Shown: positions 7,897 to 63,280 of the stretch, piece by piece
How the letters are laid out: each line of letters starts with the position of its first letter
Position numbering within the stretch: position 1 is the stretch's first letter
DNA from: Cytophagales bacterium
GTDB lineage: Bacteria > Bacteroidota > Bacteroidia > Cytophagales > Cytophagaceae
Length of the DNA: 64,000 nucleotides
Reading direction: 5' to 3'
Assembly: GCA_004294225.1 (NCBI GenBank)
Contig: REBA01000017.1
Span: 1 to 64,000, forward strand
Position numbers and translations under genes: made by a program
The notes under the pieces: model-generated
Database searches by the model: none
Told to the model about the DNA's origin: nothing
The model's input: the letters and a program-made list of their open reading frames with translations, nothing else

Positions 7897-8340
7897 ATGG
7901 TAGAATATTCTCCTAATTTGGTAATGCTGGTTGATGATAGTGATACTGATAATTTTATCAATAAAAGAGTTCTAGAATTATCTAAATTCACTAACCAAAT
8001 TTTAATTAAAAATTCTGGTAGGAATGCTTTAGAATATTTAAATGACAATGAAAATAATCCAGAGAAACTGCCCGATATTATTTTTCTAGATATCAACATG
8101 CCTATCGTAGATGGCTTTGTGTTTCTCTATGAATTTGAAGATTTTTCAGAAAAAATAAAGAGCCATTGTAAAATCATTATTCTTTCAAGTTCAAACTCTA
8201 AAAAAGACATAGATAGAATCATAGACAATAAATATGTAGTAGAATTTCTTACCAAGCCATTATCGCTCGATACAGTAGCTAACCTAAAAAAAAGTAATCT
8301 AGTAAAAGAGAAAAATCTAAAACCACTTGGCGGGAAATAA
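7897..8340 (+). CDS. Receiver-only response regulator (CheY-like)
   Basis: 147 residues that form one receiver domain and no output domain. The acidic pair is D13-D14, the phosphorylatable aspartate is D65 in IIFLDINMP, the conserved Ser/Thr is in ILSSS (about 97), and the conserved lysine is K120 in FLTKP. Such single-domain regulators of the Rcp1/CheY kind act through phosphotransfer or protein contacts. No histidine kinase is nearby. The next gene, 76 bases downstream on the same strand, is a MerR/B12 regulator, so a shared signalling role (for example light) is possible but is inference from adjacency. Confidence 0.88.
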   Translation: MVEYSPNLVMLVDDSDTDNFINKRVLELSKFTNQILIKNSGRNALEYLNDNENNPEKLPDIIFLDINMPIVDGFVFLYEFEDFSEKIKSHCKIIILSSSNSKKDIDRIIDNKYVVEFLTKPLSLDTVANLKKSNLVKEKNLKPLGGK

Positions 8341-8416: not shown

Positions 8417-9307
8417 ATGGATGCAAAATATTCAATCAAAGACCTAGAACGTTTTTCTGGAATCAAAGCCCACACCATAAGAATATGGGAACAAAGATAT
8501 AAAATTCTTAAGCCCACGAGAACCAACAATAATATTAGATTTTATAGTAATGATGATTTAAAACTCATTTTAAATCTTAGCGTTCTCAATACCAATGGAT
8601 ATAAAATATCTCAACTTGCTAATCTTTCTGAAGAAGAAATCAACGATACGGTAAAAAAAGTAGTTGCAAAAAAATTTGCCCAACAAGAGCAACTGAATGC
8701 ACTTACAATTTCAATGATTGACCTAGACGAAGAAAGGTTTAATGAAATCATTGAAAACAATATCGCTCATAGTGGATTCAAAGATACCATTGAAAATACT
8801 ATTTTCCCTTTTTTAAGACAAACTGGTTTTATGTGGCAAACAGGGACAATATTCCCTGCACAAGAGCATTTTTTATCTAACCTTATTCGTCAAAAATTAA
8901 TTAGCAAAATTGCTAGTTATAATTTTCGGACCAGCGAAAAATCGAAAAAATTCCTTCTCTTTCTACCCGAAAAAGAACTCCACGAAATTAGTCTACTCTA
9001 CTTTCAATATTTAGTATTATCTAATGGCCATCAATGTATTTATCTAGGGCAGTCTGTTCCTTTTGAAGACTTGCTAAAAGTACTTCAGATAAAAAAACCT
9101 TATGGGATAATTACGATTTTTACACAACCATTTGAAGATAATTTATTGCAAGATTATATAGACTCACTTGCTAAAGAATGTAAAGATTATAGAATTATTG
9201 TCTCAGGCTTTCAAATATTTACTCAAAGCAAACTGATACTTAGCCCCAATATTGAAGCGATAAAAAACAGTCAAGATTTGGAGAATTTACTTACACAAAT
9301 ATCCTAA
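8417..9307 (+). CDS. MerR-family regulator with cobalamin-binding domain (CarH/LitR type), paralogue 1
   Basis: 296 residues. An N-terminal MerR winged helix (YSIKDLERFSGIKAHTIRIW, residues 5-24) is followed by a helical B12-cap domain and a C-terminal cobalamin-binding Rossmann domain. The Wx9EH signature of AdoCbl-dependent photoreceptors is present as W140...E150-H151. The lower-ligand motif ExHxxG appears as E187-L-H189-E-I-S192, so the ligand His is kept but the Gly is Ser. CarH proteins repress in the dark as AdoCbl tetramers and release DNA after light breaks the Co-C bond; that function is inferred here. The stop overlaps the convergent gene by 4 bases. A paralogue lies at 60447-61337. 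Confidence 0.85.
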   Translation: MDAKYSIKDLERFSGIKAHTIRIWEQRYKILKPTRTNNNIRFYSNDDLKLILNLSVLNTNGYKISQLANLSEEEINDTVKKVVAKKFAQQEQLNALTISMIDLDEERFNEIIENNIAHSGFKDTIENTIFPFLRQTGFMWQTGTIFPAQEHFLSNLIRQKLISKIASYNFRTSEKSKKFLLFLPEKELHEISLLYFQYLVLSNGHQCIYLGQSVPFEDLLKVLQIKKPYGIITIFTQPFEDNLLQDYIDSLAKECKDYRIIVSGFQIFTQSKLILSPNIEAIKNSQDLENLLTQIS

Positions 9308-58405: not shown

Positions 58406-59095
58406 CTAAACTTTGAGCGTAGAGATTCCACCATCAATATGCAAAACTTGCCCTGTGGTAAATTGTGATTTTAATAAAAAAACAATTGCTTCTGCTATAT
58501 CTATAGACTTACCATAAATATTTAAAGGATGCCTTTTTGAAGCAGCATCTTTTTTTTCTGGGGAAGATAATAATTTCTCTGCTAATGGAGTATCTGTGAG
58601 TGAAGGTGCAACTACATTAACTCTGATATTTGGAGCCAATTCGGCTGCTAATGATTTTGATAAGCCTTCAATGGCTGCTTTAGAAGCACTAATAGAAGCG
58701 TGAAAAGGTAATCCTAAAGATACAGCTACAGTACTCATTAATACTATACTTCCATGATTTTGCTTTAGTTTAGGCAAAAAAGCTTGAATGGCAGATACTG
58801 CACCAAGGAAATTAAGCTGAAAATCATCCAAAAAATCCTTAGTAGTAGTTCGATGAAAAGGTTTAAGATTAATACTACCCGGTAAATATACCAAACCATC
58901 AATTCCTTCTGATACATTTTCAATGTCTGGCGCACCAAGAAGTGCATCATAAGGATACCAAATCAGATTGGTATAATCAGATAAATTACCAATACTTCGT
59001 GAGTAAACCACAACTTTATTGCCTTCACTATTTAGTAGTTTTGCCACATCGGCACCAATACCATAGCTGCCACCAATCAATACATAGGTTTTCAT
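58406..59095 (-). CDS. SDR-fold protein lacking the catalytic tyrosine, light-cluster type
   Basis: 229 residues from the Met at 59095 (MKTYVLIGGSYGIG); the longer frame to 59143 overlaps folE. The NAD(P)-binding GGSYGIG (8-14) is near normal, the NNAG motif is replaced by LPGS (71-74), and the catalytic Ser is at 121. At the place of the YxxxK tyrosine there is Ile135, while Lys139 is kept (ISASK). So classical SDR catalysis is doubtful. It lies 7 bases downstream of folE in the sigma-folE operon and may be a pterin-related reductase or a binding protein; I do not assert a substrate. Confidence 0.8.
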   Translation of the reverse strand: MKTYVLIGGSYGIGADVAKLLNSEGNKVVVYSRSIGNLSDYTNLIWYPYDALLGAPDIENVSEGIDGLVYLPGSINLKPFHRTTTKDFLDDFQLNFLGAVSAIQAFLPKLKQNHGSIVLMSTVAVSLGLPFHASISASKAAIEGLSKSLAAELAPNIRVNVVAPSLTDTPLAEKLLSSPEKKDAASKRHPLNIYGKSIDIAEAIVFLLKSQFTTGQVLHIDGGISTLKV

Positions 59096-59102
59096 TATTA
59101 AA

Positions 59103-59777
59103 TTATTTAATGTATTGAAAAAATTCAGCTTTAGTATTTTCATCTAAGAATTTACCGCCAAATGAACTTGTAACCGTACTACTTGTGGTATCTTCAATCC
59201 CTCTAGAAGAAACGCACAGATGTGTAGCATCAATCATTACGGCGATGTCTTCCGTGTTTAAAATACCTTTTAAGTAATTAGCGATTTGAACCGTAAGTCT
59301 TTCCTGTACCTGTGGTCTTTTTGCAAAATATTGTACTACCCTATTAATTTTAGAAAGTCCTATTACTTTTCCAGAAGAAATATAAGCTACATGAGCTTTC
59401 CCAACTATTGGCACAAAATGATGTTCGCAGTTAGAATAAAAAGTAATATTTTTTTCTACGAGCATTTCATTATAGGAATACTTATTGTCAAATAATGCTA
59501 TCTGAGGGGCGTTGTATGGATTTAGTCCACTGAATATTTCTTTGATATACATCTTTGCCACTCTTTTAGGCGTTCCTTTAAGACTATCATCTGTCAAATC
59601 CAAACCCATGATATTCATTATTTCTTTAAAATGCCCTTCGATAAGATTTATTTTCATATCGTCAGTAAGCAAAAAAGCATCTTTTTTAAGAGGGGTTTCT
59701 ATAGAAGTAGCAATATGCTGATTTCCAATTTCCTCATCTTCATCAATAGTAATAAGTAATTTATTATTCTCTACCAT
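59103..59777 (-). CDS. folE: GTP cyclohydrolase I
   Basis: 224 residues. The zinc ligands are visible as C117 and H120 in YSNCEHHFVPIVG and C188 in ATHLCVSSRGIED. The TPKRVAKMY and GLSKINRVVQYFAKRPQVQERL segments are standard. It converts GTP to dihydroneopterin triphosphate, the entry to folate and other pterins. The N-terminus is longer than in E. coli by a Glu/Asp-rich tail. The gene sits between an ECF sigma factor and an SDR protein rather than with folate genes, which suggests a special pterin demand. Confidence 0.95.
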   Translation of the reverse strand: MVENNKLLITIDEDEEIGNQHIATSIETPLKKDAFLLTDDMKINLIEGHFKEIMNIMGLDLTDDSLKGTPKRVAKMYIKEIFSGLNPYNAPQIALFDNKYSYNEMLVEKNITFYSNCEHHFVPIVGKAHVAYISSGKVIGLSKINRVVQYFAKRPQVQERLTVQIANYLKGILNTEDIAVMIDATHLCVSSRGIEDTTSSTVTSSFGGKFLDENTKAEFFQYIK

Positions 59778-59787
59778 ATTTTATATC

Positions 59788-60279
59788 TTATCTTGTTAAT
59801 TGAGCTTTTAATTTTTTTCTAGCTTGGAATATATTGGTTTTAATATTTCCAATAGGTATATTCAATTCATCTGCAATCTCTTGATATTTAAAACCTTCAA
59901 AATATTTCATAAAGCAATATTTATAATCCCAACGTAAAGTTTCAATTGCTTTTTGGATATCTTCTATGCCAGCAAGATTTCTGATTTTATCAGTTGCCGT
60001 AGATTCATAAAAAGGCTCTCCTTCAATCGTATTTTTGAATACTTCCATTTTCTTGGTAGCACGACGGTAAGAATTGATAAAAATATTCTTCATTATAGTA
60101 CACATCCATGCTCTGAAATTGGTTGCTTCATTAAACTTATCTTTATTTAAAAAAGCTCTAAGATAGGTATCATGAAACAAGTCTTCCGCATCCTCAGAAT
60201 TTCTAGTTAGATTCAAAGCATAATTTTTCAGCAATGATTTATGCTTGATTAATTTTTCGTTAAAATCTTCAGCTTTCAT
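59788..60279 (-). CDS. ECF-type RNA polymerase sigma factor
   Basis: 163 residues from the Met at 60279 (start KAEDFNEKLIKHKSLL); the extended frame to 60324 would run into the promoter. Region 2 holds DAEDLFHDTYLRAF and NFRAWMCTIMKNIFINSYRR; region 4 holds GFKYQEIADELNIPIGNIKTNIFQARKKL. No anti-sigma factor gene follows; instead folE begins 10 bases later. The upstream MerR/B12 gene is on the same strand and a palindromic operator lies in the promoter spacer, so light- or B12-controlled expression is proposed. Confidence 0.9.
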   Translation of the reverse strand: MKAEDFNEKLIKHKSLLKNYALNLTRNSEDAEDLFHDTYLRAFLNKDKFNEATNFRAWMCTIMKNIFINSYRRATKKMEVFKNTIEGEPFYESTATDKIRNLAGIEDIQKAIETLRWDYKYCFMKYFEGFKYQEIADELNIPIGNIKTNIFQARKKLKAQLTR

Positions 60280-60292
60280 AGTTTTGATTGTT

Positions 60293-60367
60293 TTGTTTAA
60301 TAGAATATGTTTTTTATTAAACAAATATTGGTAAAAATGTTTAACTAAACAAGTATTTTGTTAAACA
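60293..60367 (-). promoter_or_regulatory. Promoter and repeated TGTTTAA/TTAAACA operator of the sigma-folE-SDR operon
   Basis: On the - strand CTTG (60353-60350), a 20-base spacer, then AATATTTG (60329-60322), one mismatch from each consensus box. The spacer contains the palindrome TGTTTAGTTAAACA (60338-60351 on the + strand). Further half-sites lie at 60293-60300, 60317-60324 and 60361-60367. An operator inside the spacer is the layout used by MerR-family proteins. Confidence 0.6.
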
Positions 60368-60392
60368 TTATTTAAAAAAATTGTATAAAAAA

Positions 60393-60425
60393 AACAGCTA
60401 ACTATAAATTAAATAGTTAGCTGTT
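60393..60425 (-). terminator. Terminator of the MerR/B12 gene
   Basis: A 12-base stem (60393-60404 with 60414-60425), core CAGCTAACTA / TAGTTAGCTG, with a 9-base loop. On the - strand it is followed by a run of eight T. It follows the MerR stop and precedes the sigma promoter, so the regulator and the sigma operon are separate transcripts. Confidence 0.85.
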
Positions 60426-60446
60426 GAATAAAATAAAAATTATTTT

Positions 60447-61337
60447 TTACTGATTATCTTCTATGAAAGAATAGAAATCTTTACTGTCTGAAAAGGTGTT
60501 TACATTTTCAGACAAGCTTATTTTCTCTTTATGAATTTGAAATCCTGAAATCAAGAGTTTTCCATTAGGGATTAGCTGTGCTACTTTAGTGATGTATTCT
60601 GACAAAGAAACTTCTAACAACGGAGTAGTAATAATAGTGATTATGGTTTTGGGCTTAACTTGTTCAACAATGATTTTTATATCATCAAAAGGAACGGATT
60701 GTCCTAAATACAAATATCTAACCCCTGTTTTTTTGATTAAATAAGTATAATAAAGAAGACTTAACTCATGCCATTCCCCTTCGGGAAGATATAATATATG
60801 CTTGCAAGCCATTTCAGAAGATGGACTTTTTAATATATCTATTTGAACAATTATTTTTTGCCTAATCAAATGACTGATAAAATGCTCTTGAGCTGGATTT
60901 ACATCACCAGCAATCCACATGATTCCTATTTTTCTTAGAAAAGGAAATATTATCTTATCGACACAATATTCAAAACCATGCTTACTCACACAGTCTGAGA
61001 CTACTTGATTAAATTTATCTTCATCTACTTCTATCATAGCTATAATTAGCATATTGATATAATCAGAAGACTCATTGAAATTGTTTTTTGTAATAGAAGA
61101 AAGCTTTTCTTTCAGCTCTTCATCCGTTAAAGCGGCAATGTCTGATATTTTATATCCACATTGATTTAAAAAATTAACATTTAGTAATTTTTTTAATTCA
61201 TTATTAGAATAGGATCTTATATTTCTTCCACCCCTATCTGGAGCTAAAAGATGATATCTTTGCTCCCATATACGAATTGTGTGGGCTTTTATGCCAGATA
61301 ATCTTTCTAAATCCTTAATAGAATATTTGATTTGCAT
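60447..61337 (-). CDS. MerR-family regulator with cobalamin-binding domain (CarH/LitR type), paralogue 2
   Basis: 296 residues, the same length as the paralogue at 8417-9307 and alike throughout (YSIKDLERLSGIKAHTIRIW). The Wx9EH photoreceptor signature is W141...E151-H152, and the putative lower-ligand His is H190 in E-W-H-E-L-S, with the usual Gly replaced by Ser as in the paralogue. It lies directly upstream of an ECF sigma-folE-SDR operon and shares operator-like motifs with it. In known systems CarH represses in the dark with AdoCbl and is released by light. It is divergent from cysE. Confidence 0.88.
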   Translation of the reverse strand: MQIKYSIKDLERLSGIKAHTIRIWEQRYHLLAPDRGGRNIRSYSNNELKKLLNVNFLNQCGYKISDIAALTDEELKEKLSSITKNNFNESSDYINMLIIAMIEVDEDKFNQVVSDCVSKHGFEYCVDKIIFPFLRKIGIMWIAGDVNPAQEHFISHLIRQKIIVQIDILKSPSSEMACKHILYLPEGEWHELSLLYYTYLIKKTGVRYLYLGQSVPFDDIKIIVEQVKPKTIITIITTPLLEVSLSEYITKVAQLIPNGKLLISGFQIHKEKISLSENVNTFSDSKDFYSFIEDNQ

Positions 61338-61367
61338 CTTTTAATAATAGTAATACTATTGCAACAT

Positions 61368-61411
61368 CAAAATTAACATTTTGTTTAACTATATTTTTAT
61401 ATTATTAAACA
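61368..61411 (-). promoter_or_regulatory. Promoter and operator-like motif of the second MerR/B12 gene
   Basis: TAATTTTG on the - strand (61375-61368) fits the -7 consensus exactly. TTGTTTAA (61381-61388, + strand) lies 5 bases upstream of it, and TTAAACA (61405-61411) lies further upstream, so both motif copies sit in or near the promoter spacer. They are the same half-sites as in the sigma-operon promoter. Confidence 0.55.
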
Positions 61412-61550: not shown

Positions 61551-62378
61551 ATGAAGTCTGGGTTTAAAAAAAATATTATTGATTTACACATTAATTCCCC
61601 CAACATACTTCCCTCTTCCGCTATCTGTGAGTTTACTAATGAAATATTAGGTCTTTTATTTCCTGAATTTTCTACTGTTAGATTTGAAAATTTAAGTCAA
61701 TTAGACCATCAAATAGGACTATTAAAGCAAAAGTTAAAAGATATCCTCTTAGCCATTCAATTGGTAAAAAAAGATTTAGTAATAGAAGAGACTGTAGAAA
61801 TATTTTTTGAAAAATTAGAACTCATTTATAAAGATTTAAAAACAGACATAGAAGCAATTCTTGGTGGTGATCCAGCTGCCCAAAGTGAAACTGAGATAAT
61901 TAGAGCCTATCCTGGATTTTATGCCATCGCATTTTATAGAATTGCCCATCAATTGCATTTATTACAAATACCTATTGTTCCACGAATAATTACTTCATTT
62001 GCACACAATAAAACCGGTATAGATATTCACCCAGGAGCTATCATTGGACAATATTTTTGCATAGACCATGGCACAGGAGTAGTTATAGGAGAAACTACCA
62101 TTATTGGCAAATATGTAAAATTATACCAAGGAGTTACCCTAGGTGCCTTAAGTGTAGATAAATCTATGGCATCACAAAAAAGACACCCAACCATAGAAGA
62201 CCATGTAGTAATTTACGCAGGAGCAACCATACTTGGTGGCGAGACCCAAATAGGTAATCATAGCGTTATAGGTGGAAATGCTTGGCTTACTAGAGGTGTA
62301 CCGCCCTACTCAGTAGTTTACAACAAACCACAAATAGAGGTTCGCACCGCAGAACAAAGAACAGATATTCCTAGTTAA
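61551..62378 (+). CDS. cysE: Serine O-acetyltransferase
   Basis: 275 residues: an N-terminal helical region (1-125) and a hexapeptide left-handed beta-helix with GIDIHPGAIIGQYFCIDHGTGVVIGE and GGNAWLTRGVPPYSVV. The catalytic His is in CIDHGTG. It makes O-acetylserine. The N-terminus is longer than in the shortest EpsC forms. cysM follows 20 bases later, so the two steps of cysteine synthesis are co-transcribed. Confidence 0.93.
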   Translation: MKSGFKKNIIDLHINSPNILPSSAICEFTNEILGLLFPEFSTVRFENLSQLDHQIGLLKQKLKDILLAIQLVKKDLVIEETVEIFFEKLELIYKDLKTDIEAILGGDPAAQSETEIIRAYPGFYAIAFYRIAHQLHLLQIPIVPRIITSFAHNKTGIDIHPGAIIGQYFCIDHGTGVVIGETTIIGKYVKLYQGVTLGALSVDKSMASQKRHPTIEDHVVIYAGATILGGETQIGNHSVIGGNAWLTRGVPPYSVVYNKPQIEVRTAEQRTDIPS

Positions 62379-62398
62379 TAAAAATAAGGCAGAACAAA

Positions 62399-63280
62399 AT
62401 GAACAGTATTATTGACCTAGTAGGCAATACGCCAATAGTGGAAATAACAAAATTAACCACTAATCCTAAAGTAAAAATCTTTGGAAAATTAGAAGGACAT
62501 AACCCAGGTGGTAGTGTCAAGGACAGAGCTGCACTAGGTATGATAAAAGGTGCATTAGAAAGAGGTGATATAAAACCTGGAATGAAATTGATAGAAGCCA
62601 CCAGTGGAAACACTGGAATAGCACTCGCAATGATTGCTAGGTTATACGATTTAGAGCTAGAACTCATTATGCCCGACAACGCCACCAGAGAGCGAATTCA
62701 AACAATGGAAGCATTTGGAGCTAAAGTAATACTTACACCTGCTATGCAATCTATGGAAGGAGCTATAGATTTGGCACATTCCAAAATGCAGACTGGTCAA
62801 TATTTTATGCTTAACCAATTTGCCAATCCCGACAACTATATGGCACATTACCATTCCACAGGACCAGAGATTTGGCAACAAACAAAACATCAAATCACTC
62901 ATTTTGTATCTTCTATGGGTACAACAGGTACAATAATGGGCGTTTCAAAATATCTCAAGGAACAAAATAGTGCTATTCAAATTGTAGGTGTTCAACCTAC
63001 CGAAGGCTCCAATATCCCTGGAATACGAAGATGGCCTAAAGAATACTTACCAAAAATATTCGACCCAAGCAGAGTTGATAAAATTATCGATGTATCGCAA
63101 CAGGATGCTACTTTAATGGCAAAAAAACTAGCCAAAACAGAAGCAATCTTCTCTGGAATGAGCAGTGGAGGAAGTGTTCTTGCCGCATTGAAATTAGCCA
63201 ATGAATTAACCGAGGGAACAATTGTATGTATTATTTGTGATAGAGGCGACAGGTATTTATCCTCTAATTTATTTCTCTAA
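62399..63280 (+). CDS. cysM: Cysteine synthase (CysM type)
   Basis: 293 residues of the PLP beta-family. K41 in NPGGSVKDRAA binds PLP; SGNTGIALA and GTTGTIMGVSKYLKE bind substrate and phosphate. The IRRWPKEYLPKIF stretch and the shorter length are more like CysM (cysteine synthase B) than CysK. It converts O-acetylserine with sulfide or thiosulfate to cysteine. Second gene of the cysE-cysM operon. Confidence 0.92.
   Translation: MNSIIDLVGNTPIVEITKLTTNPKVKIFGKLEGHNPGGSVKDRAALGMIKGALERGDIKPGMKLIEATSGNTGIALAMIARLYDLELELIMPDNATRERIQTMEAFGAKVILTPAMQSMEGAIDLAHSKMQTGQYFMLNQFANPDNYMAHYHSTGPEIWQQTKHQITHFVSSMGTTGTIMGVSKYLKEQNSAIQIVGVQPTEGSNIPGIRRWPKEYLPKIFDPSRVDKIIDVSQQDATLMAKKLAKTEAIFSGMSSGGSVLAALKLANELTEGTIVCIICDRGDRYLSSNLFL

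Follow-up and report, generated by a model that had tools for sequence, protein, structure and literature searches.

Two neighbouring promoters in a Cytophagales genome raise the question of whether the gene for a putative light sensor and the operon next to it answer to one regulator. The window, that is, the whole stretch of 64,000 nucleotides analysed here, has a GC content of 33% and belongs to a 2.53 Mb draft genome of the family that includes Cytophaga. The minus strand carries a MerR/B12 gene (60447-61337) and, downstream of it, an operon composed of an ECF sigma factor gene (59788-60279), folE, encoding GTP cyclohydrolase I (59103-59777), and an SDR oxidoreductase gene (58406-59095; its start codon is uncertain, and its open reading frame opens at 59143). 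The sigma start codon was taken to be the ATG at 60279; the ORF list gives an alternative, the TTG at 60324, inside the second of the operators described below. The MerR/B12 product has the layout of a CarH/LitR-type regulator: a MerR DNA-binding domain, a four-helix bundle with a Wx9EH motif, and a Rossmann domain with an ExH motif. Genes for a serine acetyltransferase and a cysteine synthase (61551-63280, plus strand) are divergent from the MerR gene, as they are in the sister genome, and no Rfam elements were found in the window.

An earlier note on this DNA proposed that the two promoters share a TGTTTAA/TTAAACA motif inside their spacers, drawn at the sigma operon as a 14-bp palindrome, and that one regulator controls both, MerR-family proteins being known to bind within the spacer between the -35 and -10 elements. 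All sequences it quoted are present: TGTTTAGTTAAACA occupies minus-strand positions 60338-60351, within a sigma-promoter spacer of exactly 20 bases between CTTG (60353-60350) and AATATTTG (60329-60322), and in the MerR promoter TTAAACAA stands five bases upstream of TAATTTTG, with a TTAAACA further up. The half-sites given as 60317 and 60361 are where they were placed; the one given as 60293 is actually at 60294, and there is a further one at 60338. The palindrome itself did not survive as the unit: it occurs once genome-wide, is not conserved in the sister genome, and consists of one half-site plus an adjoining TGTTTAG, which reads TGTTTTG in a genome of the same genus that keeps the longer element described next.

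A listing of the half-site on both strands reveals the real unit, a 30-bp dyad, TGTTTAA-N16-TTAAACA, present in the window as three inverted pairs. Operator 1 (60338-60367), within which the palindrome lies, is the upstream and operator 2 (60294-60323) the downstream copy of a tandem before the sigma-folE-SDR operon, spaced 44 bp from start to start, with the end of operator 2 lying 15 bp before the sigma start codon. Operator 3 (61382-61411) is 44 bp upstream of the start codon of the MerR/B12 gene; on the gene strand that promoter reads TTAAACAA-AATGT-TAATTTTG, with the second half-site at 61405-61411. The distance from operator 3 to the start of the acetyltransferase gene is about 140 bp, and the operator might affect that gene as well.

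One explanation would be chance similarity in AT-rich DNA. The half-site by itself is indeed AT-rich and is not enriched in the window (14 copies against 31 expected), and its frequency alone was dropped as evidence. Six of the 14 copies, by contrast, form the three inverted pairs with an identical 16-bp spacer, and the N16 pair never occurred in 150 dinucleotide-preserving shuffles of the window, where no single spacing was seen more than once. Across the 2.53 Mb there are four exact dyads, three of them at this locus, none with one mismatch and 48 with two. Both checks that could have refuted the earlier note speak for it: the paired motif is rare in the rest of the genome, and orthologous promoters carry it. 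The shuffles and the counts over the genome, this conservation and a tandem pattern found across species together refute chance, to which we give practically no credence.

The fourth exact copy precedes a DUF4397 gene whose secreted product has a type IX sorting tail, and the DUF4397-type gene of the sister genome, whose product is 71% identical, is likewise preceded by a dyad (contig C66, 13175-13204, stretch L019, in this genome; 6555-6584, stretch L055, in the other genome of the genus). In the window, TGTTTAA half-sites are about half as frequent as the shuffles would lead one to expect, which may reflect an avoidance of stray sites or a codon effect.

Conservation among relatives extends this picture. 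The tandem before the sigma gene, at 43-44 bp from start to start, is shared by the window, the sister genome, C. aurantiaca (DSM 3654) and two others. Within the family, dyads adjoin the MerR gene in most genomes, and they precede the MerR gene and MerR-crtI-crtB, sigma-crtI-crtB, sigma-folE-SDR and sigma-idi-photolyase operons; in one family genome a dyad-preceded sigma-folE-SDR operon also includes photolyase. The presence of the dyad follows that of the gene. Among 19 family genomes, the exact dyad was found in 13 of the 14 that have a full MerR/B12 gene and in none of the five without; among 390 genomes of the order, it was found in 228 of 334 with the gene versus 5 of 56 without (Fisher p=1.4e-17; 36 of the 56 gene-negative genomes were assigned by elimination). 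Four of the five dyad-positive, gene-negative exceptions are less than 85% complete, and a reversed control pattern gave 44 matches in 33 genomes of the order, against 233 genomes for the real motif. When genomes were picked by the tandem pattern alone, 35 of 37 carried the MerR/B12 gene. From co-occurrence, adjacency and gene content, the adjacent MerR/B12 protein is very probably the regulator of both promoters, which upholds the proposal of the earlier note on this point.

Against this assignment, an exact dyad is missing from about one third of the order's MerR-positive genomes, and no dyad was recognised in a GC-rich, MerR-positive genus (f13 g22, GC 52-59%). Near the MerR gene of genomes lacking the exact dyad, and beside a diverged paralogue, there are variants that keep the 16-bp spacer and have both half-sites altered alike (TGTTTAT/ATAAACA, TGTTCAA/TTGAACA and TGTCTAA/TTAGACA). 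Such paired change is expected if a protein reads the site as a dyad. In one genome (G004, stretch L062, 4800-4864), folE lies beside a diverged MerR/B12 paralogue, with two TGTCTAA-N16-TTAGACA sites that are mutual reverse complements.

At a larger scale, a scan of 84,980 species genomes for the tandem pair (28 fixed bases) gave 98 stretches, where the chance expectation, estimated from base composition, is far below one. The 80 stretches listed are Bacteroidota by title, with one exception, a Candidatus Kuenenia MAG (L150; 27% GC) with a tandem dyad before PTPS-folE, which is probably a mis-binned Bacteroidota contig. These 80 tandem loci mostly precede light-related genes. The first gene, where assignable, is a sigma gene in 40, rhodopsin in 15, blh in 14, fasciclin in 9, PTPS in 6 and MerR in 1; the sigma gene is usually followed by crtI-crtB or photolyase, and PTPS by folE, and the gene families were confirmed. 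Rhodopsin and blh occur as divergent pairs sharing one tandem operator, which in Flavobacterium species makes up most of the intergenic space (Flavobacteriaceae stretches with this arrangement include L149, L151, L172, L178, L195, L216 and L219), and within the order single dyads also precede rhodopsin-crtY-blh operons. Surface proteins share the dyad as well, DUF4397 in the genus and fasciclin elsewhere. The motif is real and widely conserved, and most likely the docking site of a vitamin-B12-based light sensor.

The frequency with which a sigma gene directly follows the tandem would also suit the idea that the dyads are recognised by the ECF sigma factor, or by some unrelated regulator. We consider this very unlikely: the dyad is perfect, its spacer is fixed and its variants are symmetric, all unlike an asymmetric sigma promoter; it also stands before MerR-crtI-crtB, rhodopsin and PTPS-folE operons that have no intervening sigma gene; and its presence tracks the MerR/B12 gene.

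The position of the dyads relative to promoters bears on how a bound protein might act. The consensus of 269 distinct sites is TTTTGTTTAAYNWWW...WWWNRTTAAACAAAA; its symmetry is a product of the way the count was built. G and C are almost excluded at three positions on each inner side of the dyad. The housekeeping -7 box TAnnTTTG has been mapped at -12 to -5 in Flavobacterium (PMC9723704). This box begins inside the dyad at position 15 or 16 in 71 cases, versus 4 expected, and at tandem loci the internal box is always in the downstream dyad; among 270 operators, it stands 6 bp downstream of a single dyad in 12 cases, versus 1.1 expected. The latter is the register of the window's MerR promoter, whose putative -7 box TAATTTTG (61368-61375, minus strand) lies 6 bp downstream of operator 3. 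In the sigma promoter, a putative -33 element CTTG (60350-60353, minus strand), which is called from the sequence and not backed by conservation, falls within operator 1, and a putative -7 box AATATTTG (60322-60329, minus strand; one mismatch to TAnnTTTG) overlaps the first half-site of operator 2. A fixed register of this kind, with TAnnTTTG ending on the downstream half-site, was rejected (58 observed versus 61 by column composition; 16 of 85 tandem sites), and because it is no commoner than column composition predicts, the -7 call for the sigma promoter is uncertain.

Since the -7 box occurs at set registers in or beside the dyad, the dyads cover the core promoter, which fits occlusion by a CarH-like repressor better than classical MerR activation. 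Single or tandem, they overlie the core promoter at more than one register or directly precede the start codon; binding within the -35/-10 spacer is not the general geometry.

The regulator itself matches CarH by sequence, and matches Pfam MerR_1 and B12-binding_2. Its predicted full-length model (pLDDT 90) has the CarH fold, with 5c8e and 5c8d as best matches, and includes the Rossmann domain. The best family match, NCBIfam TransRegCarH, has an E value of 8e-27, but scores 94 bits against a curated cut-off of 400. The Wx9EH motif, which caps the adenosyl group, is kept in the window protein and in all relatives checked, and the axial-ligand ExH in all members checked. Among the relatives checked there is hardly any variation in the recognition helix and wing (HT[IL]RxWExR...NIRxY), which agrees with an operator that stays constant.

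The classical B12-motif glycines, however, are not all kept: in the full motif, ExHx2Gx41SxV/Tx22-27GG, the ExH is retained, S takes the place of the G in the window protein and in many relatives, and the GG is altered. These changes would be compatible with binding of the dyads by the same regulator but with no light sensing through AdoCbl, the protein being B12-independent or taking its signal from a partner protein, for which CarA (B12-independent) and class II LitR (signal from a LOV protein) are precedents (PMC8156234, PMC9758184). We regard this as unlikely, given that Wx9EH, the absence of which explains the B12 independence of CarA, is kept in all members checked, as is the axial-ligand ExH, and that the model has a Rossmann domain.

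The genome also has a second CarH-like MerR/B12 gene (8417-9307, plus strand), 46% identical to the first and preceded by a short receiver-like open reading frame (7897-8340). The dyads might therefore be bound by the second paralogue, or by both proteins, rather than mainly by the adjacent one. The recognition helix and wing are near-identical in the two paralogues, and in some relatives the dyad-adjacent gene is closer to the second; by contrast, no recognisable dyad lies near the second paralogue in this genome, and the sister genome has dyads with a single copy, the orthologue of the adjacent gene (62% identity). This reading is on balance rather unlikely.

We consider it probable that the CarH/LitR-type regulator at 60447-61337 has its operators in the three dyads and would repress in the dark and respond to AdoCbl and light. 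The binding, the repression and the dependence on B12 and light we infer by analogy with CarH. In the dark, the AdoCbl-bound regulator would occupy the dyads over the core promoter, two at the sigma operon and one at its own gene (autoregulation), and block RNA polymerase; in light, the cobalamin would be photolysed and the oligomer would fall apart, allowing expression of the sigma factor, the pterin genes and the regulator itself. The concentration of exact dyads at this locus, their co-occurrence with the gene in the family, the order and the tandem-picked genomes, the light-related genes after tandems found almost only in Bacteroidota, the set registers of the -7 box, and the retained B12-ligand motifs and fold all argue for this reading. 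Against it, in addition to the dyad-less MerR-positive genomes, the glycines and the paralogue, no convincing dyad was found at the crtI-crtB and photolyase genes of this genome; the sigma factor may relay the signal to operator-less genes such as crtI-crtB.

More broadly, the material inclines us towards a light regulon that spans the Bacteroidota. Its CarH-like B12 photoreceptor would use a new operator code, made up of N16 dyads that frequently stand in tandem at 42-45 bp, and a DNA-binding mode unlike that of Thermus CarH, with direct control of rhodopsin and blh together with carotenoids, pterins, photolyase, the ECF sigma factor and fasciclin/DUF4397 proteins. For the light induction of carotenoids and rhodopsin in Bacteroidota there has so far been little explanation; in a 2020 paper on Chryseobacterium, for example, the mechanism behind light-induced pigment is called unknown (PMC7064467). 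The open-access full texts searched gave no account of this operator, nor of rhodopsin being controlled by CarH in Bacteroidota. A 30-bp operator beside such genes in many genera points to the likely photoreceptor, makes the light response directly testable, and allows a sequenced member's regulon to be predicted from its DNA. If the proposal is true, light-driven proton pumping is tied to vitamin B12 supply, and CarH-type proteins are able to read a dyad in place of direct repeats.

Among known systems, classical MerR activators share with the present case the MerR-type DNA-binding domain and dyad sites, but here the sites have no fixed position in the -35/-10 spacer (the classical arrangement, one dyad with its centre between -35 and -10 at a constant register, does not apply), tandem dyads occur, and the protein carries a B12 domain. 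In LitR-LitS of Streptomyces, a LitR-type regulator stands beside an ECF sigma factor that drives carotenoid genes; that system differs from the present one in operator and phylum. Class II LitR proteins of Pseudomonas (PplR1 and PmlR2) are similar in their light-inducible folE, photolyase/cryptochrome and regulator genes and in their two-site promoters, and LitR proteins of Pseudomonas control in part the same kinds of genes as the dyad-linked set (PMC9758184). Their site is TGTACA-N12-TGTACA, they lack the Rossmann domain, and a LOV protein supplies the signal (PMC9758184); the half-site here, TGTTTAA with a spacer of 16, does not match their operator T(G/A)TACA-N12-TGTA(C/T)A. CarH, the AdoCbl-dependent photoreceptor and carotenoid-gene repressor of Thermus thermophilus, Bacillus megaterium and Myxococcus xanthus, has an operator of three or four 11-bp direct repeats (for Thermus, PMC8156234) in place of an N16 dyad that is often in tandem, a difference that weighs against our preferred reading. 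In the half-site TTAAACA, a T and the ACA agree with those of nAnnTnnACAn, the half-site of CarH (PMC8156234); there is no second ACA at 11 bp, C being nearly absent at the needed position of the 269-site consensus. The wing also differs (TNIR here, GGHR in CarH), and rhodopsin, pterin genes, photolyase, the sigma factor and fasciclin proteins are added to the targets; by contrast, the domain order, the fold, the Wx9EH and ExH motifs, the position of operators over the core promoter, and the presence of carotenoid genes among the targets are all as in CarH.
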